Source of the DNA: Polycyclovorans sp.
GTDB lineage: Bacteria > Pseudomonadota > Gammaproteobacteria > Nevskiales > Nevskiaceae
Direction of reading: 5' to 3'
DNA: 64,000 nt
Assembly: GCA_002706265.1 (NCBI GenBank)
Contig: PAKU01000006.1
Location: 1 to 64,000 of the forward strand
Both the position numbers and the translations under genes were made by a program. Below the pieces are notes generated by a model that was not told the DNA's origin, searched no databases, and worked only from the letters and a program-made list of their open reading frames with translations. Position 1 is the first letter of the stretch; each line of letters starts with the position of its first letter. This document shows, piece after piece, positions 51,751-54,162 of the stretch.

Positions 51751-52134
51751 ATGCAAGCTAAATATCTGATTCGTCGCGTTCTTTTGGGGTTGTCACTGGC
51801 CGGGGTCATGGTCGTGAGCGTGCCGGCTCAGGCCGAGACCTTGCTGTCGACCGAAGCCTTGGTGGCTGAAACCACGCAGCAGGATCTTCGCGCCGACATT
51901 TCAGCAAAACTGGCCCGCGAAGACGTGGCCCAGCAGTTGACCGCGTGGGGCGTGGATGCCGCCACCATCGACATGCGTCTGGCGCAGTTGTCCGAGCAGG
52001 AACTGCAGGCTTTCGCCGCCGAGCTTGACCAGGCACCGGCCGGTGCCGGCGCGCTGGCCGTCGTGGGTGTTGTCTTCGTGGTGCTGTTGGTGCTGGAACT
52101 GGTCGGCGTGATCAACGTGTTCAACGCGATCTGA
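51751..52134 (+). CDS. PA2779-family secreted small protein, possible protease substrate
   Basis: A 127-aa protein. A Sec signal peptide (YLIRRVLLGLSLAGVMVVSVPAQAE) is followed by a helical polar segment, then QLSEQELQAFAAELDQAPAGAG, then a very hydrophobic C terminus (ALAVVGVVFVVLLVLELVG, about residues 101-119). The pattern resembles PA2779-family proteins. LSEQEL followed by a GAGA stretch looks like a double-glycine leader. The next gene encodes a C39-like lipoprotein peptidase, so this could be its substrate; that is inference. ATG 51751 has GGGAG 5 nt upstream. It would otherwise be a small single-helix periplasmic/membrane protein. Confidence 0.82.
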   Translation: MQAKYLIRRVLLGLSLAGVMVVSVPAQAETLLSTEALVAETTQQDLRADISAKLAREDVAQQLTAWGVDAATIDMRLAQLSEQELQAFAAELDQAPAGAGALAVVGVVFVVLLVLELVGVINVFNAI

Positions 52135-52144
52135 TCGAGTCACC

Positions 52145-53107
52145 TTGCGCTTTCCATTGTTGAATCTGCGGTGGTGCGCGCTGTTGCTGGCGCTCACCAC
52201 CGCAGGATGCGCCACGCGGGGCCCGGTGCCGCCGGTGGCGCCCGCGCAGAGCGCCGCTGAAATCAGTCGTACCCCATTTTTTCCGCAGGACGCGTATCAA
52301 TGCGGCCCTGCCGCGCTGGCCACCCTGCTCGGTGCCAGCGGCGTGGAGGTGGCGCCCGAGGCGCTGGTGTCCGAGGTGTACATTCCCGCCCGCAAGGGCA
52401 GCCTGCAGGCCGAAATGCTCGGCGCCGCGCGCAAGCGTGGGCGGGTGCCGGTGCAGTTGCCCACCGGGCCGGGCGCTTTCGAGGCTCTGGCCGAGGCGCT
52501 GCGTGCTGACCAGCCGGTGCTGGTGATGCAGAACATCGGCCTGAAGATGTTGCCGGCCTGGCATTACGCGGTGGTGGTTGGCGTCGACACCTCGAGCCAG
52601 AACGTCACGCTGCGCTCGGGCACCGAGCCCCGGCTGCGGACGCCGTTCAAAGCCTTCGCCAAGAGCTGGGCAGCCAGCGACACCTGGGGCGTGACCCTGC
52701 ACCCGCCCGACGCGCCGCCGCCGTGGGCGGCGCTTGAAGACTGGATGCAGACCGTGGCCGTCTGGTCACGCACCGCGCCGGCCGCCGCCGCAGTAGCCGC
52801 CGAAGCCGCGACCCGGCGGTGGCCCGATCATCCCGCCCCGTGGTTGGCGGCCGGCAACGCACGCTATGCAGACGAGGATGTGGCGGGCGCGGTGCAGGCC
52901 TTCCGCCACGCCCAGGCGCTGCGGCCCTCGGTGGGGGGTGCGCACAATCTTGCGATCATCCTGGCGTCGAATGGCTGTTTCGATGCGGCCGACGATGCGC
53001 TGCAGGCGGTCGATGCCGCGCAGGCCCGTCATCCGGCGATGCTGAGCGCCCGCGACCGGGTGCGCAGCCTGTCGACTCAGGTTGCGGCCCGCGACTGCCC
53101 TTTTTGA
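52145..53107 (+). CDS. PA2778-family C39-like cysteine peptidase lipoprotein with TPR
   Basis: A 320-aa lipoprotein (lipobox TTAGC at about residue 21). The papain-like C39 domain (about 45-175) has the Cys in FPQDAYQCGPAALATLLG and the His in AWHYAVVVGVD; TPR-like helices follow (about 230-310). The Gln before the Cys also fits a C39 active site. It is recognised as PA2778 family and pairs with the preceding PA2779-type gene, 10 bases away. A TTG start with GAG upstream is used. Its last 31 bases overlap the convergent queG gene. Confidence 0.85.
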   Translation: MRFPLLNLRWCALLLALTTAGCATRGPVPPVAPAQSAAEISRTPFFPQDAYQCGPAALATLLGASGVEVAPEALVSEVYIPARKGSLQAEMLGAARKRGRVPVQLPTGPGAFEALAEALRADQPVLVMQNIGLKMLPAWHYAVVVGVDTSSQNVTLRSGTEPRLRTPFKAFAKSWAASDTWGVTLHPPDAPPPWAALEDWMQTVAVWSRTAPAAAAVAAEAATRRWPDHPAPWLAAGNARYADEDVAGAVQAFRHAQALRPSVGGAHNLAIILASNGCFDAADDALQAVDAAQARHPAMLSARDRVRSLSTQVAARDCPF

Positions 53108-54162
53108 CGCTGCTCGTCCATCGCCCAGTCGATGTGTTCGGCCACCAGCGCATCGGCGCCTTCACGGCCCTGTTCCAGCGCGCTGAGCACCTGCTCGCTG
53201 AACGGTGCGTTGCCCAAGGCCACCGCGAGATTGCGACGCCAGCCTGACCAGCCGGCCCGGCGCAGGGCCATGCCCTCGGTTCGGGCGTGCCAGTCGGCCT
53301 GTGTCCAGGCCCACAGGTCAAGCAGGGCAGGCCGGTCCAGCCCATGTCGCGGCGCAAAGTCGGGCGCCTGGCTGCGCTGCGCATAGCGGTTCCAAGGGCA
53401 CACCAGCTGGCAGTCGTCACAGCCAAAGATGCGATTGCCGATGGCCCGGCGCAGGGGCTCGGGAATGCTGCCGCGTTGCTCAATGGTCAGGTAAGAGATG
53501 CAGCGTCGCGCGTCGAGGCGGTAGGGCCCGACAAAGGCGTTTGTGGGGCAGATTTTCAGGCAGGCCTGGCAGCGCCCGCATTCAGCGGGCACCGGGTCAG
53601 TGTCGGCCGGGGGCAAGACGAGATCGGTATAAATTTCACCGAGAAAGAAGAACGAGCCGGCATCACGGTTGAGCAGCAGGGTGTTCTTGCCGATCCAGCC
53701 CAGGCCGGCGTTGCGGGCCAGCGCTTTTTCCAGAGACGGCGCGCTGTCGCAGAACACCCGGTAGCCGTGCGGTGCCAGCGCCTCTGCCATCCATTCGGCC
53801 AGGGCTGCGAGCTGCTTGCGCATGCGCTTGTGATAGTCGCGCCCCAGCGCGTAGCGCGACACATAGGCGCGTTCCGGATCACGCAGCGTGTCCATGGCGC
53901 GCTCGACCGTGTCGCTGAGATACGGCATGCGCAATGACAGCACGCTGAGGGTTCCGGGCTGCAAGGCGGCAGGGCTGGCGCGCAGCGCGATGTTGCGGGC
54001 CAGGTAGTCCATCTCGCCGTGGAAGCCCGCCTCCAGGTAGGCATCGAGGTGGGCGAGGTCTTCGCCCAGGTCAAGATGGGCCACGCCCACGTCTGCGAAA
54101 CCCAGGGTTCGGGCGTGACGGCGGATGTCGTCGAGTGCCATGGGGTGGGGCGTCGGCGCCAA
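53077..54162 (-). CDS. queG: Epoxyqueuosine reductase
   Basis: A 361-aa cobalamin/iron-sulfur enzyme for the last step of queuosine synthesis in tRNA. Two 4Fe-4S clusters are visible: CGRCQACLKICPTNAF and the CDDCQLVCPWNRY segment; HGEMDYLARN and AGLGWIGKNTLLLN are also typical. TTG 54162 is preceded by GGGAG at 5 nt, the same signal used by the PA2779-type gene; ATG 54141 would shorten it by 7 residues and lacks a ribosome site. It is divergent from nnrD, only 22 bases away. Confidence 0.93.
   Translation of the reverse strand: MAPTPHPMALDDIRRHARTLGFADVGVAHLDLGEDLAHLDAYLEAGFHGEMDYLARNIALRASPAALQPGTLSVLSLRMPYLSDTVERAMDTLRDPERAYVSRYALGRDYHKRMRKQLAALAEWMAEALAPHGYRVFCDSAPSLEKALARNAGLGWIGKNTLLLNRDAGSFFFLGEIYTDLVLPPADTDPVPAECGRCQACLKICPTNAFVGPYRLDARRCISYLTIEQRGSIPEPLRRAIGNRIFGCDDCQLVCPWNRYAQRSQAPDFAPRHGLDRPALLDLWAWTQADWHARTEGMALRRAGWSGWRRNLAVALGNAPFSEQVLSALEQGREGADALVAEHIDWAMDEQRQKGQSRAAT

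Follow-up and report, generated by a model that had tools for sequence, protein, structure and literature searches.

Organization of the PA2779-PA2778 locus

The window, i.e. the whole 64,000-nt stretch of Polycyclovorans sp. DNA that was analyzed, contains a bicistron on its plus strand. The first gene (51751-52134, +) starts with ATG, is preceded by AGGGAG and encodes a 127-aa protein of the PA2779 family, which we consider a candidate precursor and substrate. After a spacer of 10 bp follows the second gene (52145-53107, +), which starts with TTG and encodes a 320-aa C39-like TPR lipoprotein of the PA2778 family, the proposed peptidase. The pgi gene precedes the pair by 40 bp, and a search for a sigma-70-like promoter between pgi and the pair found none. 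At the other end, the 3' end of the PA2778 gene overlaps by 31 bp (53077-53107) the 3' end of a convergent minus-strand gene (53077-54162) that, judged by sequence, encodes epoxyqueuosine reductase. A terminator-like hairpin (53080-53096) is located within this overlap, which is no more than expected by chance.

Profile searches confirmed both gene calls of the earlier note. The PA2779 protein scored 93.2 bits against NF033919 (cut-off 40) and 67.4 bits against DUF6627, PF20332 (cut-off 27), while the PA2778 protein scored 265.8 bits against NF033920, the PA2778 family cysteine peptidases (cut-off 150). The scores of the latter against the Pfam families Peptidase C39 (PF03412, 17.1 bits) and PF13529 (23.8 bits) fall below the respective cut-offs of 22 and 24. 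Both proteins therefore belong to NCBIfam families that are already annotated in public records. The literature search returned no function study of either family, and no description of the site or of the pairing logic presented below. Published observations include the regulator gene bswR located divergently to PA2779 in P. aeruginosa (PMC3985676) and the loss of the PA2778 start codon in one P. aeruginosa clone (PMC3697988).

Joint distribution and genomic context

Presence of the two families was scored above the family cut-offs across the class, in a sample of 274 genomes. Both families were found in 64 genomes and neither in 207; PA2778 never occurred alone, and all 64 PA2778-containing genomes fall within the 67 genomes that possess PA2779. 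The three genomes with PA2779 only are explained by truncation at contig ends (G011 and G210) and by a PA2778 gene broken across frames (G185). In the latter case, the PA2778 sequence is spread over three frames next to a PA2779 gene that is intact (L131:5501-6520), representing either a pseudogene or a sequencing error.

The gene order is conserved as well. In a separate collection, PA2779 lies directly upstream of PA2778 in all 80 loci found, among them one locus each with the label Desulfocapsa, Nitrospirota and Rhodospirillales, and the pair is kept in 30 of 30 loci examined from the window's own family and order. The intergenic distance has a median of 7 bp, with the two genes overlapping in 37 of 137 pairs. 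No other gene recurs beyond a few of the approximately 70 loci in which a third operon partner was sought.

Eight loci contain two tandem PA2779 genes in front of one PA2778 gene, and several genomes encode additional PA2779 paralogues elsewhere, in trans. Such an arrangement looks like an enzyme acting on one or several substrates and less like a stoichiometric complex of fixed composition. Plasmid carriage is rare (2 of 72,556 records). Anti-phage defence libraries gave no match, and phage libraries gave weak matches with E-values of 0.025 or worse. A weak PA2779-like match in a genome lacking PA2778 (G064) was rejected as a methyl-accepting chemotaxis protein. Mutual-information coupling between the two proteins, computed over 137 pairs and that of the window, was uninformative: signal-peptide residues were among the top pairs, so that the signal is dominated by relatedness.

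Domain organization of PA2779 and its candidate cut site

The PA2779 protein of the window reads LSEQELQAFAAELDQ-APAGAG-ALAVVGVVFVVLLVLELVGVINVFNAI, in agreement with the second-half sequence reported earlier. Its first 28 residues (51751-51834, +) form a Sec signal peptide that ends with PAQA and is modelled as a helix at residues 3-22. The Ala-x-Ala type of signal is conserved, being present in 115 of the 159 aligned family members. The mature helical leader-like domain follows at residues 29-94 (51835-52032, +) with model helices 34-54, 57-65, 70-79 and 82-94. This domain includes two invariant residues, G67 (158/158) and R76 (159/159), and the near-invariant E84 (155/159). When compared with the PDB, the PA2779 model matched no fold at E <= 0.001.

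The proposed cut site APAGAG comprises residues 95-100 (52033-52050, +), with P96, A97, G98 and A99 at its core. P96 is conserved in 152 of 159 proteins, A97 and G98 in 155 each. Residues 98-99 are GG in 84 proteins, GA in 42 and GS in 23, followed by GE (4), GQ (2), AG (2) and AS (2). Altogether, 149 of 159 family members carry one of the first three pairs, as in the cut sites of double-glycine leaders. GG, GA and GS represent the usual spectrum of cut sites accepted by C39 peptidases. Conservation of the small-residue site had been proposed as a check on the processing idea; at about 95% it is far beyond chance in proteins that are otherwise of low identity (mean column identity 28%, alignment A3). 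The conserved PAG could alternatively reflect a structural hinge.

In the model, the site forms a non-helical break (residues 95-98) between an amphipathic helix (82-94) and a membrane-like helix (99-118). Large hydrophobic residues occupy positions 85, 88, 92 and 95, i.e. -4/-7/-11/-14 for a cut after residue 98 or -5/-8/-12/-15 for a cut after residue 99, which we compared with the -4, -7, -12 (-15) spacing of double-glycine leaders. This spacing is consistent with C39 leaders without being decisive, as any amphipathic helix would look similar. The leader peptidase LahT recognises Val-4, Leu-7 and Leu-12 and binds positions -1 to -3 in extended form (PMC6363468). On the other hand, the LSxxEL motif that the earlier note took for a double-glycine leader block does not fit this role: E84-L85 precede the cut by 13-15 residues, where 7-8 would be expected, and the canonical LSxxEL register directly upstream of the site (-12 to -7) is absent.

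The hydrophobic C-terminal peptide or membrane helix spans residues 100-127 (52048-52131, +) and coincides largely with model helix 99-118. Most tails in the family have 28-32 residues, a conserved acidic residue and an FPF-like end. The tail had been described as purely hydrophobic; hydrophobic it is, but not purely so, given that the window protein has a Glu late in the stretch at residue 116 (52096-52098), where 143 of 155 aligned members have Asp or Glu. At least 14 PA2779 proteins stop after a short unrelated hydrophobic run, and in nine loci such a tail is found on the sole PA2779 protein adjoining PA2778. Subfamilies therefore differ in the type of tail but retain the helical part and the PAG site, which identifies the leader and the site as the shared parts of the partners of PA2778. 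Pseudomonas-type tails (L176, L191, L195, L207) possess two conserved Cys residues (LCATDIFSFIKC) that are absent from other genera.

In contrast, close relatives differ less in the tail than in the leader. Comparison with a locus of the same genus (L268) revealed 32 identical residues out of 33 (95-127), with dN of 0.014 and dS of 1.28. Such strong constraint, judged from these substitution patterns, makes the hydrophobic peptide a probable functional product, as opposed to ballast.

Fold, active site and predicted location of PA2778

PA2778 begins with a lipoprotein signal, whose lipobox Cys22 (codon 52208-52210, +) is present in 65 of 65 homologues. It is followed by the C39-like peptidase domain at residues 36-191 (52250-52717, +), delimited by fold, conservation and profile alignment and carrying Q48, C53, H140 and S158. 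TPR-like helical repeats at residues 197-312 (52733-53080, +) were recognised from model helices and from matches of the family profile to solved TPR proteins. The AlphaFold model (pLDDT 93.0) combines the C39 fold with the TPR. All parts of the claimed architecture, a lipoprotein with a C39-like Cys and His plus TPR repeats, were thus recovered. No exporter was found among the recurrent neighbours, so PA2778 does not have the arrangement of a cytoplasmic domain of an ABC exporter.

The best PDB fold for the peptidase domain is the C39-like peptidase 3erv (Z 17.2), and the domain also matches the leader-bound double-glycine peptidase LahT (6mpz, Z 16.4, 2.0 A over 133 residues) and ComA (3k8u, Z 16.1, 2.0 A over 132 residues). 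The PA2778 profile matches FapD-like and exporter C39 domains with a probability of 97. Nearby papain-like folds include the pseudomurein endoisopeptidase 8z4h (Z 16.0), and this neighbour leaves room for PA2778 acting elsewhere, on peptidoglycan cross-links, bacteriocins or other proteins, with PA2779 serving as its membrane partner or as a pseudo-substrate inhibitor. We consider this reading decidedly unlikely, in that the best-matching subset consists of double-glycine peptidases whose specificity the PA2779 site fits, and that no further conserved neighbour points to another target.

Conservation of the catalytic Cys and His, another check suggested for the processing idea, turned out to be complete or nearly so. 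C53 and H140 are present in all 71 homologues and the oxyanion Q48 in 70 of 71; in the set of 65 homologues, Cys53 of the QCGPAAL motif was found in 64 and His140 of WHYAVVVG in 65. However, Ser158 stands where the profile alignment places the catalytic Asp of C39 peptidases, with Ser in 70 of 71 proteins, so the activity of PA2778 is not assured. A second copy in which Gly takes the place of the catalytic Cys, a rare case, was observed at L136:6286-7362; it has no adjacent PA2779 gene, and the same genome also has an intact copy.

The loss of the triad Asp is also compatible with a stable complex formed without cleavage, where the C39-like domain would merely bind the leader or hinge of PA2779, PAG would be a hinge preceding the membrane helix, and PA2779 would anchor or regulate the lipoprotein. 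Inactive C39-like domains that bind substrate exist in some RTX exporters, and the near-identity of residues 95-127 noted above is what a functional membrane helix would show. Such a complex nevertheless appears rather unlikely to us, since binding alone would make the conserved Cys53, His140 and Gln48 needless, and since two PA2779 genes per PA2778 and paralogues in trans argue against it.

The predicted addresses of the two proteins present a further difficulty. Position +2 of the PA2778 lipobox is usually Ala, Gly or Ser and never Asp among recognised lipoboxes. Under the E. coli rule PA2778 would accordingly go to the outer membrane, whereas PA2779 is predicted to sit in the inner membrane because of its hydrophobic segment. 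This likely disagreement, derived from sequence features of both proteins, counts against the pair reading.

Comparison with known systems

A processing pair meeting in the periplasm had been regarded as unusual, but FapD, which acts as a periplasmic C39 protease in the Fap amyloid system of Pseudomonas, already provides a precedent (PMC5557850). FapD is Sec-exported and requires its active-site Cys for function, with the target left unsettled in that paper (PMC5557850). Both FapD and PA2778 are exported C39-like cysteine peptidases placed in the periplasm, in the case of PA2778 by prediction. FapD belongs to the fap operon, whereas no fap-type genes recur around PA2778 in about 70 loci. Moreover, PA2778, unlike FapD, is a TPR lipoprotein whose Asp position is taken by Ser, and it is paired with a small dedicated partner in which a site is conserved. 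A link to the fap operon via a nearby Marinobacter C39 gene was rejected, as the genes around it seem to form a cluster of another kind. L235 (9415-12972), L236 (7500-10110) and L229 contain a further C39 peptidase gene that is FapD-like and of Sec type. In L235 it is followed by genes for an exported protein of about 334 aa and for an outer-membrane protein resembling FadL, and L236 has comparable genes; these C39 genes possibly belong to a separate periplasmic C39 system that has partners of its own.

The C39 domains of AMS/PCAT/ComA exporters (LahT 6mpz, ComA 3k8u, PCAT1) have the fold and the Cys, His and Gln residues in common with PA2778, and their substrates share with PA2779 a Gly-Gly/Ala/Ser site after an amphipathic leader helix. 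In contrast to PA2778, which has no exporter, these domains are cytoplasmic, fused to ABC exporters and equipped with Asp in the triad. Unlike the exporter precursors, PA2779 carries a Sec signal, and its leader domain is much longer.

In sortase and rhombosortase systems, enzyme and target are jointly present or absent and often adjacent, and the target carries a motif, a hydrophobic helix and often a basic end (PMC3237569). The LPXTG/sortase and GlyGly-CTERM/rhombosortase pairs resemble PA2778/PA2779 in their joint presence and in the motif followed by a hydrophobic helix. PA2778 itself is a soluble C39-like lipoprotein, neither a rhomboid nor a sortase, and its candidate targets form a single homologous family, in place of the many unrelated passengers of those systems. 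We think it improbable that PA2778 is a Gram-negative sortase-like enzyme with a C39-like fold and a Cys-His-Ser site that attaches a helical envelope protein to a second envelope molecule or releases the hydrophobic peptide as a signal. Its transfer version, in which a thioacyl intermediate at PAG would move the helical domain onto an envelope amine of peptidoglycan, lipid or protein and the tail would be discarded, is quite improbable. Many family members do combine LPAGG, a hydrophobic helix and a basic end like tripartite C-terminal sorting signals, joint presence with a single enzyme fits, and a PA2779-family gene ranks in the top 3% of Stutzerimonas (Pseudomonas) stutzeri DSM4166 transcripts under four conditions (PMC10155442). 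However, the PA2779 protein of the window lacks a basic C-terminal cluster and indeed any basic C-terminal residue, and 38 of 159 members have no K/R among the last 10 residues. No unrelated passengers with the same tail were seen among the matches, all of which belong to the PA2779 family. The stronger conservation of the tail among close relatives would also be odd for a discarded part. If the sortase-like reading were true, PA2778 would cut an abundant small envelope protein at LPAG(G/S/A) and add a further enzyme fold to C-terminal sorting.

Proposed processing and its significance

The explanation that we favour, at about even chances, is that PA2778 cuts PA2779 at PAG(G/S/A), so that the helical leader and the hydrophobic peptide come apart. 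PA2779 would be an exported precursor composed of the Sec signal, a helical leader of about 66 residues and a hydrophobic peptide of about 28 residues, the latter two joined by the conserved site. PA2778, as a lipid-anchored periplasmic C39-like peptidase, would bind the amphipathic leader helix and cut behind either G98 or residue 99, which would free the leader from a hydrophobic and probably membrane-embedded peptide. The original reading of the pair as a leader-cutting enzyme and its substrate gains from conservation and co-occurrence, while its LSxxEL register did not hold and FapD sets a precedent for a periplasmic C39 peptidase.

Periplasmic C39-like peptidases such as FapD and jointly present pairs of the sortase and rhombosortase type are already known. 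What is new is the combination of a TPR lipoprotein C39-like enzyme having a Cys-His-Ser site with a dedicated exported GG/GA/GS precursor. If the proposed cleavage is true, double-glycine processing would move from ABC exporters to the periplasm, carried out by a dedicated lipoprotein peptidase with an unusual triad. Two families of unknown function could then be tested directly as enzyme and substrate at a predicted cut site, and the pair would represent an overlooked, widespread envelope processing system in about a quarter of the sampled genomes of the class, including Pseudomonas.
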